DNA of 50,630 bases from an uncultured Bacteroidales bacterium (lineage in GTDB: Bacteria > Bacteroidota > Bacteroidia > Bacteroidales > Paludibacteraceae), in contig CACXYM010000016.1 in NCBI GenBank assembly GCA_902771935.1, positions 1 through 50,630 on the forward strand. The letters run 5' to 3'. How positions within the stretch are numbered: the stretch's first letter is position 1; the number at the start of each line of letters is the position of its first letter. The translations under genes and the position numbers were made by a program. The notes under the pieces are model-generated. The model searched no databases. It was not told the DNA's origin and worked only from the letters and a program-made list of their open reading frames with translations. Shown here in pieces: positions 6,045-39,586 of this stretch.

Positions 6045-6493
6045 TAACCCCTCTTCATTCGCGCACGAATACGATCAGACAAATCGCGCGATTCCAGTTT
6101 CTTTTCTTCAAACTTATCAGGACTCCACAATGCAAAACGGTCGAAAAGACCGACAAACACGATGTCTTGCCCGATACCGATTGCTTCCAAGTCGCGTTTT
6201 TGAATTAGAATACGACCCTGATTATCCATTTCCAAGAATTCGGCGGCAGACATAAACTGCATCAGCAGCATCTGATCTTCCGGCTCCCAGTCGTCTAACG
6301 CATTGCGCAGTACCGTCACTTTCTCGTCCCATATATGTTCTGGGTAAAAAATAATGCACTCATTATCCATGTCGCGATGCATCACAATGCGTTTGGAATC
6401 CAAACCGGACAATAACTTGCGGTAGGTTGCAGGCACAAAAATGCGCCCTTTTTCATCAACACGACCCGCAATATGACCTATAAATGTACTCAT
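6044..6493 (-). CDS. mraZ: division/cell-wall cluster transcriptional repressor MraZ
   Basis: MraZ is an AbrB-fold DNA-binding protein that autoregulates the dcw operon by binding direct repeats at its own promoter. The protein begins MSTFIGHIAGRVDEKGRIFV, matching the family start, so the ATG at 6493 was chosen. An upstream in-frame ATG at 6565 would place the start upstream of the promoter box. Two AbrB-like repeats are seen, each with a DxKGRI-type core (DEKGRIFVP, and DNQGRILIQ in the second half). The length of 149 residues is normal. It is first in the operon and its stop overlaps rsmH. Confidence 0.95.
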   Translation of the reverse strand: MSTFIGHIAGRVDEKGRIFVPATYRKLLSGLDSKRIVMHRDMDNECIIFYPEHIWDEKVTVLRNALDDWEPEDQMLLMQFMSAAEFLEMDNQGRILIQKRDLEAIGIGQDIVFVGLFDRFALWSPDKFEEKKLESRDLSDRIRARMKRG

Positions 6494-6532
6494 TTTTTTG
6501 CGTTCTTCAGACCTTGTTTCTGAAAAACGCCG

Positions 6533-6724: not shown

Positions 6725-7195
6725 CTATTCGTGGTGGTAAGATTCGCCCCGAAGAATAGTGCAAGCACGATACAATTGCTCAACAAAAAAGAGTCGGACC
6801 ATCTGGTGCGAAAATGTCATTTTGGACAAACTGATCATACCATTGGCTCGGTCATATACTTCTTTTGAGAAACCGTAGGGCCCACCGACGACAAAAATAA
6901 TATCCCGTCCCGAACTCATCTGTTTTTGTAAATAATTGGCAAACTCCAAAGAGCGGAACTGTTCGCCGCGTTCGTCTAAGAGAATAAGTGCAGCCGAAGG
7001 AGAAATAGCCTTTAAAATCAGTTCTCCTTCTTGCTTTTTTTGCACATCTTGAGAAACTTTCCCCTTGCCATTAAGTTCCGGAATAACGCGCAGCTCAAAT
7101 GGTGCATAGTGTGTTAGACGTCCGCAATAGTCGCCTATAAGCGTATCTAAATGCTTGTCTGCGGTTTTGCCTACCACTAAAAGGGTTATCTTCAT
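6725..7195 (-). CDS. rlmH: 23S rRNA (pseudouridine1915-N3)-methyltransferase
   Basis: RlmH is a SPOUT-fold methyltransferase that methylates pseudouridine 1915 in helix 69 of 23S rRNA within the 70S ribosome. The start MKITLLVVGKT (ATG at 7195) gives 156 residues, the family norm. The SAM-pocket motif GGPYG (104-108) and the C-terminal segment with the FSHQMVR motif and the ending ESYHHE are diagnostic. Its ATG overlaps the thioesterase stop as ATGA, making it the last gene of a six-gene minus-strand run that starts at yihY. Confidence 0.96.
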   Translation of the reverse strand: MKITLLVVGKTADKHLDTLIGDYCGRLTHYAPFELRVIPELNGKGKVSQDVQKKQEGELILKAISPSAALILLDERGEQFRSLEFANYLQKQMSSGRDIIFVVGGPYGFSKEVYDRANGMISLSKMTFSHQMVRLFFVEQLYRACTILRGESYHHE

Positions 7196-7936: not shown

Positions 7937-10144
7937 CTACTCTTTCAGCCACTTATCTAGCCATTCTCTAAACGTTCGTTGCCATAATATACCGTTTTGC
8001 GGTTTCAGCACCCAGTGATTCTCATCAGGATAGATGAGCAACTCTGCCGGTACACCTCTCATGATAGCCGCATCGAAAGCTGCCATGCCTTGATTAGCCA
8101 AAATGCGGTAGTCTTTTTCACCATGGATACAGAGTATCGGTGCATCCCATTTGTCCACGAACTTGTGCGGACTATTGGCAAAAGTGCGTTGTGCGATGGT
8201 GTTGTTTTTCTCCCAATATGCACCTCCCATATCCCAGTTGGCGAACCATTTCTCCTCGGTCTCAAGATATTGCATTTCCATGTTAAAGATTCCGTCATGC
8301 GCAATAAAGGCCTTAAATCGACCGTTATGATGTCCTGCTAACCAATAGACGCTGAATCCACCAAACGAAGCGCCCACACAACCAAGATGTTTTTTATCTA
8401 CGTATGGTTCGGTGCAGAATTCATCAATAGCGGTCAAATAGTCGCGCATGCATTGGCCACCATAGTCGCCGGAAATTTCTTCGTTCCATGCTTTGCCGAA
8501 ACCGGGCAAACCGCGTCTGTTTGGCGCAACAATGATATAATCACCGGCACTCATCATCATGAAGTTCCAGCGGAATGACCAGAACTGACTTACAGGACTT
8601 TGCGGGCCGCCTTCGCAATATAAAATAGTCGGATATTTCTTTTTGGGATCGAAATGCGGCGGATAGATAATCCAAGTCAGCATATCTTTTCCGTCCGTTG
8701 TCTTTTGCCAGCGCGGCACTACTTTCGAACGTTCAATCTGGTTATAGATGTTATCGTTCTCATGCGTCAGTTGATCCATCGCTACCTCGAGTGCCGTGTG
8801 TGGTTGGTCCCATTCAAGACCTCGTGGTCCATATTCGCGACTCGGGTCTTTGAGATATTGTTCTACATCCATCCGGTAAATCTCATTTGCTTGACGCATT
8901 GAGTGTCCCAACAGATATGCATAATGGTCGCATATATCACCTAAACCTAAATCATATTGGCCTTCAGTCATCCGTTCAGCCCAACCTTCGAGCGTTATGA
9001 GATACAGGTTAATTGTTCCCGACCAGCAGGCCGTATAGAGAATGGTTGTGTCATTGTACCACGCGAACTCTTCCACAGGATCTTCGATGCGTTTCGTCAG
9101 CCAGTCCGTTTTGCCCGTCTGAAGATCCATCACCATCAGCCTGTTCAGATCACTCTCATACCCGTCACGCTCCATCGATTGCCAAGCAATCCGCTTGCCG
9201 TCAGGCGAATACGCGGGATTCGTGTCGTAGCCCTTATTACCTTCCGTTATGTTTTTATGTGTTTGTTTTTCCACGTCATACAAGAAGATATCGCTATTGG
9301 TCGAAACGGCATACTCTATGCCGATTTTTTTACGGCATGTATACGCTAATTCCTTATTATTCGGATTCCATGCCAACTGCTCCATGCCGCCAAACGGACG
9401 CATCGGGCACTCGTAAGCTGTTCCTTCTAAAATGTTTACACCATCGCTTACTTGTGCAGACTTGATGCGCAGGCCTTCTCCTATATAGTCGACTGATAAT
9501 TGATACACAAACGGCTGCGGCACTTCATCAACCCATTCGTCCCAATGTTTGTACATTAAGTCAGTCACTATACGACCTGTCGCCAATGGCAAGTCCGGAT
9601 ATTTGTCAGCCGTAGTAGGGTGCGCTTTAACAGGCTTAACCAGTACGACCTTATCACGCATCGGTGAAAGTAAGAATCCTTCGATGTCATCTGCACCTTC
9701 AACGGCAACATCTTTGCCATCAAAACGCAAATACAGTTTACCTCCTTTTAGATATGCCAATGTCCCGCTGTTGCCAAACCACGCTGGGTCAGAACCCACA
9801 AACTCGTCCAGCACGGTCATCTCACCGCATGGCTTTCCGTCTCCGGCGACTCGCCGGTCGAACGGATTGCAGATACGTATCCAACTTGTCGAGCGGTTCT
9901 CCTCTACGCTATAATAACTGACAGTATAGGCAACCCAACCTGTCTCGATATCGCTCACCACGCTGCCGATACGGCCCATTGCCCACAATCCTTCCGGAGT
10001 CAGACGACCGCCTTCTATTTTGATTGTAGGTTTACTAATCGGCGCTTTGTCCGGCTCTGTAGAACCGCAACCGCCGTTACCCTTTGTTCCGCAACTTGCT
10101 AATAATAAGCCTACTGCAGCCATAATAACATATCTAAGTTTCAT
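7937..10144 (-). CDS. S9-family prolyl oligopeptidase-like lipoprotein (DPP IV type)
   Basis: This 735-residue exported serine peptidase probably removes dipeptides or short peptides outside the cytoplasm. It has a lipoprotein signal (LLASC, lipidated Cys18), a long beta-propeller with Tol-like repeats (for example NPAYSPDGKRIAW) and a C-terminal alpha/beta-hydrolase domain. The catalytic triad is Ser593 in GASFGG, Asp678 in HGEKD and His710 in DENHW. It is 24 bp after the BspA-like gene and 13 bp before the thioesterase gene. Residues 92-102 (RRVAGDGKPCG) are encoded by a palindromic DNA element also found inside pheT. Substrate specificity is not determined. Confidence 0.92.
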   Translation of the reverse strand: MKLRYVIMAAVGLLLASCGTKGNGGCGSTEPDKAPISKPTIKIEGGRLTPEGLWAMGRIGSVVSDIETGWVAYTVSYYSVEENRSTSWIRICNPFDRRVAGDGKPCGEMTVLDEFVGSDPAWFGNSGTLAYLKGGKLYLRFDGKDVAVEGADDIEGFLLSPMRDKVVLVKPVKAHPTTADKYPDLPLATGRIVTDLMYKHWDEWVDEVPQPFVYQLSVDYIGEGLRIKSAQVSDGVNILEGTAYECPMRPFGGMEQLAWNPNNKELAYTCRKKIGIEYAVSTNSDIFLYDVEKQTHKNITEGNKGYDTNPAYSPDGKRIAWQSMERDGYESDLNRLMVMDLQTGKTDWLTKRIEDPVEEFAWYNDTTILYTACWSGTINLYLITLEGWAERMTEGQYDLGLGDICDHYAYLLGHSMRQANEIYRMDVEQYLKDPSREYGPRGLEWDQPHTALEVAMDQLTHENDNIYNQIERSKVVPRWQKTTDGKDMLTWIIYPPHFDPKKKYPTILYCEGGPQSPVSQFWSFRWNFMMMSAGDYIIVAPNRRGLPGFGKAWNEEISGDYGGQCMRDYLTAIDEFCTEPYVDKKHLGCVGASFGGFSVYWLAGHHNGRFKAFIAHDGIFNMEMQYLETEEKWFANWDMGGAYWEKNNTIAQRTFANSPHKFVDKWDAPILCIHGEKDYRILANQGMAAFDAAIMRGVPAELLIYPDENHWVLKPQNGILWQRTFREWLDKWLKE
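9825..9860. repeat. 36-bp palindromic element within the S9 peptidase gene (copy 1)
   Basis: The element consists of CCGCATGGC, three variable bases, CCGTCT, then the palindrome CCGGCGACTCGCCGG (9843-9857) and three flanking bases. The same arrangement recurs at 37761-37796 inside pheT. There the palindrome differs at two positions that pair with each other, so the stem is kept. Both copies lie in the same orientation and reading frame, encoding RRV(A/S)GDG(K/S)PCG. It resembles protein-coding palindromic elements such as those of Rickettsia; that relation is inference. Confidence 0.85.
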
Positions 10145-15633: not shown

Positions 15634-15641
15634 CTAAAAAA

Positions 15642-16020
15642 AATAGCAGGCCTATAAGCCGGGTTCTGTACGCTCGCGCGCGTTAGCCATTAATCTCGAG
15701 GAGTAAATTGTACAATATACACTTTACATTTTACACTTTGCAGTGTCCTTCTCTCGCTTCCTACCCTCCAACTCAGCCGAGTAAGCCTCAAACGTCGGTA
15801 TACTTGGAATTGCAGCCCACAGTGTAGTCGTTTCACCTCGCGTCAACCTTTCCCATAAGAACGGCGAACGCGATCTCGTCTCTGTACCAGTGACCAAACA
15901 TTACTGCCTGACGGCCATTAACCGCTGTGGTACTCTATGCTGCCCGGACTTTCCTCTACCGCGGGGGAACAAAATAAATCTTGCCCTGCCCAACCGTAGC
16001 GACTAACCGGCCTACTATTA
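15642..16020 (-). ncRNA. rnpB: RNase P RNA (bacterial class A)
   Basis: This is the catalytic RNA of RNase P, which matures tRNA 5' ends. On the minus strand the 5' part contains GAGGAAAGTCCGGGC and the 3' end contains ACAGAACCCGGCTTAT, the two universally conserved P4-forming regions. The ends were set by the P1 helix: AATAGTAGGCC (5' end near 16020) pairs with GGCCTGCTATT (3' end near 15642). The length is about 380 nt, normal for type A. A short AT-rich 7-bp-repeat array at 15712-15739 sits in the 3' third, probably in a variable helix. It appears to be co-transcribed with the upstream tRNA-Gly. Confidence 0.95.
15712..15739. repeat. 7-bp repeat array inside RNase P RNA
   Basis: On the minus strand the units AAAGTGT, AAAATGT, AAAGTGT and ATATTGT follow one another in an AT-rich patch that contrasts with the GC-richer RNase P core. 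It probably expands a tolerant peripheral helix. Confidence 0.75.
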
Positions 16021-17091: not shown

Positions 17092-17221
17092 CCAATAGCA
17101 GTTGGCTCACGTTTTTTTGTGAGTATCCGAAAATAATAAATATCATAATAAATATCAAGTAATAAAAAAATAGGAGTATGCCGAAAATCCGATAAAGAGT
17201 AGGCACTAAAAGAATTACAAC

Positions 17222-19795: not shown

Positions 19796-19819
19796 CAGCC
19801 GCTTTTGAAAAAAGTGAAT

Positions 19820-19879
19820 GATCGTGGATTGATTTGGACTGCTTGCAACCACGTAAAAATAAAGGCTAAAAAGCGGCCT
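19820..19879 (+). promoter_or_regulatory. SAM-II-type riboswitch in the metK leader
   Basis: The leader has the SAM-II layout. P1 pairs CGTGG (19823-19827) with CCACG (19849-19853). TGATTT (19830-19835) follows P1, TTGCAA (19843-19848) precedes the P1 3' strand, and GGCTAAAAAGC (19864-19874) closes the element. CTGCTT (19839-19844) can pair with AAGCGG (19871-19876), giving the required pseudoknot. It ends 24 bp before the metK ATG, so ligand binding could mask the initiation region. SAM synthetase is the expected target of feedback by SAM. No binding evidence is available. Confidence 0.8.
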
Positions 19880-35571: not shown

Positions 35572-37098
35572 CTAAAACTCACTTGTAAAGTGGAACTTGA
35601 TATGTTTGTAGTCATTCTGTGCCATGCTCAGTATATACGCACTATCTGCCATGAACACGTCGCGGCCTTCTTTGTCGGTAGCCATGTACTGAGCCTTGCG
35701 CGACTTAAAAGTGCGCAGTTCTTCCTCGTCGTCGGACTCTATCCAGCAGGCTTTGAACATCGCCATATTCTCCCAGCGGCATTTGGCGTTATACTCATGC
35801 TCAAGGCGGTATTGTATCACTTCGAACTGCAGTTGTCCGACGGTGCCGATAATCTTACGGCCGTTGAGTTGGCTGATAAAGAGTTGCGCCACACCTTCGT
35901 CCATAAGTTGGTGCACGCCCTTATCCAACTGTTTCTGTTTCATCGGGTCAGCGTTCTCGATGTACTTGAACATCTCCGGCGAGAAGGACGGCAGTCCTTT
36001 GAAGTGCAGTTCTTCTCCTGCGGTAAGGGTGTCTCCGATTTTGAAGTTACCTGTATCCGGAAGTCCGACGATATCGCCGGCAAAGGCTTCGTCCACGGTC
36101 TCTTTCTTCTGTGCCATGAAACAAGTCGGGGCAGAGAAACGCATCTGTCTATTCTCGCGCACGTGCTTATAATATACGTTACGTTCAAAGCGTCCGGAGC
36201 ATATCTTAAAGAACGCAATACAACTGCGGTGGTTCGGGTCCATGTTCGCGTGTATCTTAAAGCAGAAACCCGTGAAGTTGTCTTCCATTGGATCTACCTT
36301 ACGTTCCACGGCTTCGACGGGGCGTGGCGACGGAGCGTTCTTAACGAAGAAGTCCAGCAGTTCCTGCACGCCGATGGTCTTGTAGGCAGAGCCAAAGAAG
36401 ACCGGAGCCAAGTCGCCCGCCAAGTATTTCTCGCGGTCAAAGAGCGGATAAACACCGTCAATCAGTTCCATGTCCGCTTCCAGTTTCTCACTCAGTTTGA
36501 CGGGGCGGTCAGCAAGGCTGAATACGCTTTCGAACTTGAGTCCTTGTCCGTTAGCCCAAGTCACCGGCGTCACGGTAATGCCGAGTTCGCTCTCTACGTC
36601 ATCCATCAAATCGAACGGGTCTTTACCTTCGCGGTCCATCTTGTTCATAAACACCATCACCGGTGTTTTGCGCATGCGGCACACTTCCATCAAGCGGCGT
36701 GTCTGCGTCTCCACACCTTTGGCGCTGTCGATAACGATAATCACACTATCCACAGCCGTCAGTGTGCGGAAGGTGTCTTCTGCAAAGTCCTGGTGACCGG
36801 GAGTGTCCAGGATGTTAATGTGATACGTTACGTCCTGCTGTGAATTTACGGGTCCGGAGCCGCTCCGGTAATCAAAACCCATTACAGAGGTCGCAACCGA
36901 TATACCACGTTGTTTCTCTATCTCCATCCAATCGGACGTAGCGGTCTTACGGATTTTGTTCGACTTGACAGCTCCTGCCACGTGAATAGCGCCTCCGTAG
37001 AGTAGGAGTTTCTCTGTCAGTGTGGTCTTACCTGCGTCCGGGTGCGAGATAATCGCAAACGTGCGGCGGCGCAATATCTCATCAACGTAACTTGGCAT
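35572..37098 (-). CDS. prfC: peptide chain release factor 3
   Basis: RF3 is the GTPase that recycles RF1/RF2 after peptide release. The 508-residue protein has G1 SHPDAGKTT (18-26), G3 DTPGHQDF, G4 NKMDRE, a translational GTPase beta-barrel domain and the RF3 C-terminal domain. The length is near the 520-530 norm. Its start overlaps the end of pheT by 17 bp, which suggests translational coupling. Confidence 0.97.
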
Positions 37099-39586
37099 TA
37101 AATTTCTCCTCGAAGGTCTTTTGCAGGCGACCCATTATGTTTTCGATTTGTTTGTCTTTGAGTGTGTTCTCTGCGTCTTGCAGGATGAAGGACAGGGCAT
37201 ATGATTTCTTGCCTTCTTCGAGGTTCTTGCCCTCATAGACGTCAAACAGATAGACATTCTTCAGAAGCTTGCCTCCGGTCTCAAACGCAGCGCGTGCGAG
37301 GTCAGCGAATTGCACGCCTTTGTCCACGAGTAAAGCGAAGTCACGTTTTACTTCCGGATACTTAGGCAGGTCGCTGATAACCGGTTTGTATTGTTTATTC
37401 TGTTTGAGCAGTTCTTTCCAGTACAGGTCTGCGTAGTAAACAGGGTTATCAATATCGAACTGCTTGATCAGGTCTTTGGCTACTACTGCCATGTATCCTA
37501 ACACTTTACCGTTGGCAGCTTTGATAACGAGTCCGTCGCTGAAGCATTGTGCTATTCCGCAGCAGCAATCTTTAGTCGGGTCAATCGCCGGTTCGAGCAC
37601 CAGCTTGTCCATGTTCACACCCAGACGGCGCAGGATATTATTCACGTACGCGTGCAATTGGTAGAAGGTGGTTTTCTCGTCCTTCATTACCCAGCTCTGG
37701 AGAGTCTTATTACCGGTTATCCACAGACCGAGATGCGGTTCTTCCGTATATGCCTCTATGCCGCATGGCGAACCGTCTCCGGAGACTCTCCGGTGGTAGC
37801 AGTTACCGAACTCGTAGAACTTGAGGTCGGCATTCTTGCGGTTGGCATTGCGTTGAATAGACTCCAGTCCGCCGAAAAGCAGCGTTTGTCTCATTACGCC
37901 TAAGTCTTGCGAGAGCGGATTCATTATCTTCACGCAGGTCTCGAGCCATGTACCGTTTTGGTAGTAGGATGTCTTGGTCAGACTATTGTTCATGATCTCG
38001 TTGAAGCCTTGTGCGGTCAGCTGTTCAGAGATACGTTTTTGTAGTGCTTCAGGATTGGGTTTGGGGTTATAGGAAAGACTGGTGTTCAGTTTCTCGGGGA
38101 ACTCGACGTTATCGTAGCCGTAGATACGGAGGATATCTTCCACCACGTCGCACTCGCGCTGTACATCTACGCGGTAACGAGGAACGGCGAGTAACCACTC
38201 GTTGCCTTTCTTCTCGATAATTTCTATCTCCAAGGCACGCAGAATCGTCGTAACTGTCTCTTCGCCGATTTCCTTACCAATAAGTTTATATGCCCTGTCG
38301 AGGTTGAATGCTACTTCCCATGGTTTAAACTCTCCGTTCTTCACATCAACGATGTCCATCGCGATCTCTCCGCCTGCCAGTTCTTGGATCAGCATTGCGC
38401 AGCGTTTGAGGTTGTAGATAACGGCATTCGGGTCGCAGCCACGCTCGTATCGGAAGGAAGCGTCAGTGCTGAGTTGGTGACGACGAGCGGTCTTGCGGAT
38501 AGACACAGGGTCGAAGTACGCGCTCTCGAGGAACACGTTCTTGGTCTCGTTGGTTACGCCGGAGTCGAGTCCGCCGAATACGCCGGCAATACACATCGGT
38601 TCTTCGGCATTGCATATCATCAGGTCGGCAGCCGACAACGTATGTTCTGCGCCATCAAGGGTGACGAATTTAGTACCTTCGGCTACGTTCTTAACGATAA
38701 TCTGTTGACCTTTGATTTTGTCTGCATCGAACGCGTGCAGGGCTTGTCCCATCTCGTGAAGCACGAAGTTCGTGGCGTCCACGACGTTATTGATTGGACG
38801 CAGCCCAATCGTTGTGAGTGCTTTCTTGAGCCAGTCGGGTGACTCAGCCACTTGAACACCCTTGATGCTTACGCCTGAATAGCGCGGGCAAGCGTCGCTG
38901 TTCTCCACCGTCACCTTAATCGGCAGGGCGTTACTCTGCACTTTGAAGGCTTCCACATTCGGTTTTGTCAGCGCAATATTCTGTCCATGCGCTTGGTAGT
39001 AAGCGTATAGGTCGCGCGCTACGCCATAGTGCGAGGCTCCGTCGTTGCGGTTAGGCGTGATATCCACTTCGATGACATAGTCATCCTCTAAGTGGAAGTA
39101 CTCTTTAGCAGGTAGTCCGACCGGCGTGTCAGCAGGCAGCACCATGATTCCGTCGTGCGATGAACCAACGCCAATCTCGTCCTCTGCGCAGATCATACCT
39201 AATGACTCCTCGCCGCGGATCTTTCCGCGTTTGATGGTGATTTTACCGCTGTCGGGCGTTCCCGACTCTCCGCTGTAGAGAACCGTTCCGATTGTTGCCA
39301 CAATCACTTTCTGTCCTGCGGCAACGTTGGGCGCACCGCAGACTATCTGTATCGGCTCTTCGTTAGGCGCGATACGGGTGGTGGTGATGTGTAAATGGTC
39401 GGAATTAGGGTGCTCCACGCAAGTCACCACTTCGCCGACTACCAGACCTTCGAGTCCGCCTTTGATAGATTGTACTTTCTCAACAGTACCGACTTCCAAT
39501 CCGATGGAAGTCAGAATCTTTGCTACTTGTTCTGCATCGTCCTGCAGAGCGATGTAACGCTTTAACCAGTTGTACGATATATTCAT
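37082..39586 (-). CDS. pheT: phenylalanyl-tRNA synthetase beta subunit
   Basis: This is the beta subunit of the alpha2-beta2 enzyme that charges tRNA-Phe. The 834-residue protein has, in order, the N-terminal domain, a tRNA-binding OB domain (about 42-155), the B3/4 editing domain (about 215-400), B5 (about 410-485), the catalytic-like core and the C-terminal ferredoxin-fold anticodon-binding domain (about 740-834). Two variable loops carry unusual insert-like peptides: [11 protein letters not shown] (around 107) and [11 protein letters not shown] (around 600). The latter is encoded by a palindromic element shared with the S9 peptidase gene. pheS is not adjacent. Confidence 0.97.
37761..37796. 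repeat. 36-bp palindromic element within pheT (copy 2)
   Basis: CCGCATGGC, three variable bases, CCGTCT and the palindrome CCGGAGACTCTCCGG (37779-37793) repeat the arrangement found at 9825-9860. Relative to that copy the palindrome changed at two positions that pair in the stem. It encodes [11 protein letters not shown] in a loop of PheT between NCYH and IEAYTEE. Confidence 0.85.

Follow-up and report, generated by a model that had tools for sequence, protein, structure and literature searches.

A 33-bp hairpin-forming element, probably mobile, within unrelated protein-coding genes of a Bacteroidales genus

The S9 peptidase gene and pheT of an uncultured Bacteroidales bacterium share a palindromic 33-bp (11-codon) sequence that is very probably a short non-autonomous mobile repeat, one that would insert by way of a hairpin, be tolerated in protein loops and then decay. 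Its copies form a family with a usual unit length, lie in many genes and frames, face empty sites in relatives and covary at paired bases; that the element is mobile we infer from its distribution. The window, that is, the whole stretch of 50,630 nucleotides that was analysed, belongs to a genome of 2.06 Mb in 46 contigs (95.3% complete), and its features are collected in Table 1. As a preliminary description made from the sequence alone had proposed, the S9 peptidase gene and pheT carry one copy each, in the same orientation and reading frame. The pattern CCGCATGGC-N3-CCGTCTCCGG-N-GACTC-N-CCGG is exact at both copies and, with up to three mismatches, has these two matches in the window against none in 100 dinucleotide shuffles. 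The 18-base head, exact in both window matches, is not significant when taken alone, as a tolerance of three mismatches gives a chance mean of 0.93 matches and at least two matches in 25 of 100 shuffles. Read on the minus strand, the two copies encode RRV(A/S)GDG(K/S)PCG, as RRVAGDGKPCG at residues 97-107 of the S9 peptidase and as the matching 11 residues 599-609 of PheT. The preliminary description needs correcting on two points: it gave the unit as 36 bp, the repeating unit being 33 bp, and it knew of two window copies, a third, core-only copy being present in prfC, which adjoins pheT. No Rfam family matches the S9 copy, even at E values up to 1, and a known RNA family was rejected on this ground; the window has five Rfam matches, all away from this copy.

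Table 1. Positions of the element copies, their host genes and neighbouring RNA features in the window.
Feature	Position	Strand	Details
Full 33-bp element in the S9 peptidase gene	9825-9857	+	CCGCATGGCTTTCCGTCTCCGGCGACTCGCCGG; R1 model E 3.0e-10
Stem-loop of the S9 copy	9843-9857	+	6-bp stem CCGGCG/CGCCGG, loop ACT; a seventh, A-T pair possible; DNA fold
Full 33-bp element in pheT	37761-37793	+	CCGCATGGCGAACCGTCTCCGGAGACTCTCCGG; R1 model E 9.0e-10
Core-only copy in prfC	36850-36868	+	GGGTCCGGAGCCGCTCCGG; 2 mismatches to the core
S9 (prolyl oligopeptidase) family peptidase gene	7937-10144	-	735 aa; PF00326, E 5.6e-54
pheT, phenylalanyl-tRNA synthetase beta chain	37082-39586	-	834 aa; five Pfam domains
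prfC, peptide chain release factor 3 (RF3)	35572-37098	-	508 aa; NF001964, 678 bits (cut-off 473)
RNase P class A RNA	15639-16018		Rfam
SAM-II riboswitch	19818-19879		Rfam, barely above cut-off
DUF805b RNA	17171-17205		Rfam

Three sites, in the S9 peptidase, LepA and lysyl-tRNA synthetase (LysRS), are longer than their empty counterparts in relatives by a net 33 bp exactly, or 11 codons. The preliminary description would have taken the same peptide at both sites in homologues from distant Bacteroidetes as evidence against a mobile element; in the alignments, which cover the genus, the S9 peptide is absent from all 29 relatives (best loci from 61 genomes). Flanks of this site could be placed in 24 relatives, where the gap between them is exactly 0 in 14, against 33 in the window, and 3 to 54 in the other ten. 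Similarly, 21 of 28 relatives have a LepA loop of two residues, compared with 13 where the element is present, and the remaining seven relatives hold other insertions. For LysRS, 21 of 30 rows show a stretch of 29 residues, compared with 40 where the element is present, and there the residues that precede the insert are also unlike the empty form. Homologues without the element are intact. In an AlphaFold2 model of the S9 peptidase (25 sequences, mean pLDDT 73.4), the insert at residues 97-107 is predicted to form the tip of a beta-hairpin between strands 84-99 and 105-116, residues 99-105 being placed at pLDDT below 50. Searches of the PDB recovered relatives of both host proteins, the S9 peptidase and PheT, and tblastn of the former (P0001) against plasmids showed its homologues to be widespread; in several members of the genus (L133-L162) the S9 peptidase match is split near query residues 424-457, a variable region. 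PheT carries the element at two sites. An alignment of 42 PheT ORFs, duplicates counted, shows the peptide of the window's site in just three genomes, this one, G084 and G092, which share the copy (flank identity 92-96%); PheT of G061 has the peptide in a different loop context. The loop at this first site is variable in relatives and of similar or greater length (gaps 27-78), its borders are not cleanly readable, and a clean insertion there was rejected. At the second site (G067, G111 and G127), 33 stands where most relatives have a gap of 3, a net gain of 30 rather than 33.

The 74 distinct copies found among genomes collapse to 36 sites, or 35 independent ones without a match in an Opitutaceae record (L058), and 31 of these 35 lie in ORFs of at least 150 codons. 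All six frames are used: on the same strand as the ORF, 11 sites fall in frame 0, six in frame 2 and two in frame 1; on the opposite strand, nine fall in frame 1, two in frame 2 and one in frame 0 (counts that take L089 as LysRS, re-read by hand, and leave out L058). Five of the six frames are covered by the 24 long-ORF sites whose genes match a Pfam family (for PheT site 2, by homology), the sixth, frame 1 on the same strand, being represented by two ORFs only, neither with a Pfam match; in all, seven of the 31 long ORFs lack Pfam support or fell outside the Pfam scan of site ORFs, in which 21 of 27 were matched. Beyond the window, the host genes encode an aminotransferase IV, a beta-CASP nuclease, QueH, LysRS, an AIR synthase-like protein, LepA, a QueE-like radical SAM protein (below the NCBIfam cut-off), a Mur ligase/alanine racemase fusion, a peptidase U32, an HD-domain protein, HflX, an esterase, an M20 peptidase, an NAD DNA ligase, a GSCFA protein, a GHMP kinase, a second metallo-beta-lactamase-fold protein, a dienelactone-hydrolase-family protein, Mfd and a 2-hydroxyacid dehydrogenase. 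One QueH gene (L079) has two copies in opposite orientations, at 6482-6514 and 6741-6773, 226 bp apart. Since several frames are used, it is the DNA and not one peptide that spreads. A functional peptide motif, conserved or acquired by selection on the protein, would account for the near-identical peptides of the two window copies and is very improbable: copies in other frames give unrelated peptides (for example PNGxxPAEALR and AWLxASGGSP), the homologues that lack the peptide are intact and the bases of the stem covary. A function at the peptide level was accordingly rejected, several reading frames being used in family-matched genes. It is also highly unlikely that the element is transcribed and then skipped by the ribosome, leaving proteins without the 11 residues; a bypass of this kind would suit a hairpin-forming sequence located in essential proteins, but it would require neither a length that is a multiple of three nor a host frame that stays open through the element, both of which are seen in the long ORFs. 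No stop occurs in any frame in 36 of 48 copies, compared with 32% of shuffled sequences, and this poverty in stops may reflect survival within genes.

Each unit consists of a conserved head (CCGMATGGCTGT-like) followed by a GC-rich core, xCTsCGGAGx'CTCTsCGs. With positions numbered 1-33, a first hairpin pairs 19-33 through 24-28 around a 3-nt loop, and single-strand DNA folding of two copies predicts that it forms on both strands. Compensatory changes that conserve the stem had been suspected from the two window copies and are borne out as covariation over the copies from relatives. Stem cells are paired in 98.6% of cases and there are 24 double changes, neither figure being reached in any of 500 shuffles; double changes affect three stem pairs, a number that 147 of the 500 shuffles also reach and that therefore does not rise above chance. 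Counted over the 35 sites, with one copy per independent site, pair 19-33 is C-G in 26, G-C in eight and T-A in one, and pair 23-29 is A-T in 29, C-G in four and unpaired in two. A second helix joins 15-18 with 23-26; because it uses bases in common with the first, the two hairpins are mutually exclusive. Its covariation is found at pair 16-25 only, the other pairs being invariant, and that pair is C-G in 13, G-C in 11, T-A in 10 and unpaired in one of the 35 sites (on A1: C-G 17, T-A 16, G-C 12, G-T 1 and two unpaired). Fixed ends, distribution, covariation and the use of several frames together indicate that what is copied is a DNA capable of forming a hairpin. In some genomes (G118, G139, G140, G110 and G137; L163-L186), the core is joined to other heads, and these are lineage dialects of the element; G118, in which the head is TATCCGGCTCCGGAGCCACTCCGG, has 45 core matches against two for the reversed pattern.

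The first pattern was found in five of 61 genomes, and a broadened one, generalised from the copies thus found, in 25 of the 121 genomes of the genus with up to nine copies each, the window's genome being included in both sets; the reversed broadened pattern, used as a control, had no match among the 121. R1, a covariance model made from 48 distinct copies and including copies that R1 itself finds, matches 71 of the 121 genomes at least once at E<=0.1, with many of these matches weak or partial. The preliminary description had held that only two copies in the genome would speak against mobility. Two is indeed the number of full-length copies in the entire genome of the window (up to three mismatches), but relatives carry up to nine by pattern and up to 33 by model, many of the latter weak, so that this count does not refute a mobile element; the proposal that a mobile palindromic element enters coding regions is supported by the many copies in relatives, by loops absent from homologues and by the covarying stem. 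With only two full copies in this genome, one of them shared by descent with sister species, activity in the window's lineage is at most low. In a scan of genome_contigs (84,980 species), the exact pattern occurs in 56 stretches, 55 of them in Bacteroidales or Paludibacteraceae records and none in Rickettsiales records; the remaining one, in an Opitutaceae record, was taken as a chance match. Among the matches listed for 247 genomes of the order at E<=1e-4, in a model search with stricter filters, only G000 and G137 appear, both of this genus, and none from 172 other genera, two of which belong to the same family. Spread by phage was rejected, as the exact pattern has no match in viral_contigs. 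The animals named in the titles of the genome_contigs records are ruminants and, as far as tested, the element is confined to one genus, mainly of rumen gut bacteria. Named records with the element are MAGs or isolates from metagenome projects, which could raise the suspicion of an assembly or binning artefact; the probability of this is close to nil, given that assemblies from different projects and animals have the element at the same sites, with diverged flanks.

A search of the window's genome for the core with up to two mismatches returned five places, against none for the reversed control; one of them, on contig C4, lies upstream of the first methionine of an ORF (L225), and another is the core-only copy, which encodes part of an RF3 loop beginning GFDY. 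This loop measures two residues in 15 distinct homologues of the genus. Two others (L107 and L109) hold R(S/R)ASGGDNSTV in its place, apparently a decayed element, and two more (L114 and L123) hold something else. A plausible age series runs from the S9 copy, seen in this genome only, through the PheT copy, found in close relatives too, to the prfC copy, shared and degraded.

The base directly after the element is T at 25 of the 35 sites, C at nine and A at one, thus a pyrimidine at 34 of 35, and the excess of T over neighbouring positions has a P of about 4e-7. This pyrimidine belongs to the target, because it is already in place at the empty S9, LepA and PheT-2 sites. Position -2 never holds G (P about 0.001, one among several positions examined). 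Target duplication does not exceed chance: 22 of 36 sites have no flanking direct repeat (22.1 expected) and five of 36 have repeats of two bases (2.95 expected). Two copies are adjacent in G125, with a period of 33; G137 has a repeated pair with a period of 39 rather than 33, six bases lying between the two. In the reading that we prefer, the hairpin form of the element would probably be recognised by an enzyme, and transposition would place a new copy immediately 5' of a pyrimidine, mostly T, with no detectable duplication of the target. As the length of the unit is divisible by three and stops are seldom encountered, an insertion within a gene would add 11 residues in any frame of landing, and those in tolerant loops, their peptides presumably neutral, would survive selection and then drift and decay as loop sequence. 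A dedicated enzyme, none having been found so far, is most likely behind the copying, its rivals being an HUH nuclease and template switching by the host.

The first rival, a REP-like element moved in trans by a RAYT or another Y1 (HUH) transposase, appears unlikely. Size, hairpin and dispersed copies recall REPs as portrayed in the portions consulted of PMC3733652, the pyrimidine at the 3' junction and the lack of target duplication suit a nuclease that acts on single strands and chooses its site, and 42 of the 121 genomes of the genus have a Y1_Tnp match, 34 of them above the cut-off. The window's genome, however, has no Y1_Tnp match, nor do 10 of the 17 genomes with at least nine R1 matches. 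In 30 Y1 loci, each taken with flanks of at most about 1.5 kb, a single R1 match was obtained, with an E value of 0.93, and a hairpin scan of 15 Y1 loci found none. Neither REP tag is a regular part of the element: none of 48 copies has GTAG or CTAC at an end, and 12 of the 48 have CGTC at positions 14-17. The cognate transposase of a RAYT system, usually flanked by its repeat, was looked for and is not supported by the Y1_Tnp, R1 and hairpin scans, by which incomplete genomes or divergent enzymes could be missed. We also regard it as improbable that host processes act alone, whether by template switching at hairpins or by repair in which a hairpin-bearing strand serves as a patch, with no dedicated transposase. 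The unit is very short, adjacent copies follow a period of 33 and the same loops gather several other short repeats, as if the host tended to insert short sequences; a specific enzyme, such as our preferred reading involves, would nevertheless account more readily for the pyrimidine junction and for ends that are fixed at 33 bp in unrelated sites.

These other repeats are found in the loops of LepA, LysRS and the beta-CASP protein in other species, and include GGGAGGG-type palindromes, GTTACCGGTTACGGG repeats, GTCGAAA arrays and CAGTCAG arrays. The LepA loop, which has the element in G002 and G004, holds other insertions in seven of 28 relatives (L258, L259, L261, L270, L271, L274 and L275), among them an CCTTCCATAAAAGGAAGG palindrome, an GGGTGACGGGTTACCGGTTACGGG repeat and an GTCGAAAGTCGAAAGT array. 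In LysRS, several species (L278, L281, L283, L284 and L292) have other sequences that extend the loop, such as GGGTTACCGGTTACGGG in L278 and CAGCAGTCAG arrays in L292. One loop of the beta-CASP metallo-hydrolase has the element in six loci, and four (L140, L143, L147 and L149) have other repeat-like inserts there. Elsewhere in LysRS, residues 46-78 (L059:5543-7198) match many short places in G065, G018, G026, G034 and others, with about 50-85% identity along some 25-60 residues, and are probably another dispersed repeat in the same protein. On the strength of several repeat families in the same loops and of two mutually exclusive, covarying hairpins, we tentatively suggest that unrelated families of short repeats insert in frame, throughout the genus, into the same surface loops of essential proteins, where an undescribed mechanism of hairpin copying might feed the evolution of loops. 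The element is attractive for such questions through its 11-codon unit, several sites with clean empty relatives and hosts that include LysRS, PheRS, DNA ligase, LepA and Mfd; its young, shared and decayed insertions offer a series for studying how proteins gain loops, and the covarying second helix and pyrimidine junction are clues to its movement.

Among the titles and opening lines of abstracts searched, with subscription papers mostly outside the search, we recognised no report of coding palindromes in Bacteroidales. The known systems are compared here as parts of the cited papers describe them. MITEs measure 70-300 bp with terminal inverted repeats of 15-30 bp (PMC3733652) and mostly have target duplications (PMC2229807). 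Those such as ERIC, Correia and RUP are likewise non-autonomous and sometimes in frame within genes (PMC2229807, PMC10969869), whereas our element has only a CCG/CGG pair at its ends and no duplication was seen, so that it lacks both marks of a MITE. REPs are 20-40 bp long with one hairpin and complementary stem changes and fall into GTAG and CGTC superfamilies, and CGTC repeats are reported from five phyla, Bacteroidetes among them (PMC3733652). The element resembles them as a short, dispersed, single-hairpin repeat with complementary stem changes and some intragenic copies; some REPs fall within ORFs, DNA repair and tRNA synthetase genes among them, but most are intergenic (PMC3733652), in contrast to the long-ORF location of nearly all sampled sites here. 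CGTC REPs have a stem of 8-9 bp that almost always opens with two A-T pairs, loops of 4-5 and a mostly CCA tail (PMC3733652), while the present stem is of 6 bp with a 3-nt loop and a first pair that is C-G or G-C at 34 of 35 sites; together with the tag counts above, this places the element outside both superfamilies. Rickettsia palindromic elements (RPEs), of 105-146 bp (PMC2229807) or about 150 bp (PMC10969869), with similar elements in Wolbachia and with RPE-4 and RPE-6 placed among the CGTC REPs (PMC3733652), are likewise palindromic, dispersed, in frame within unrelated conserved genes and tolerated there (PMC2229807, PMC10969869). The element shares with them a palindromic unit in frame in several unrelated genes and absent from homologues; it is 33 bp long and comes from another phylum, and the likeness drawn here is between descriptions. 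The element, free of REP tags and of a visible link to a Y1 transposase, works like RPEs and intragenic REPs. Coding palindromes are best known from the intracellular Rickettsiales, and the gut bacteria described here, which belong to another phylum, provide an independent case.
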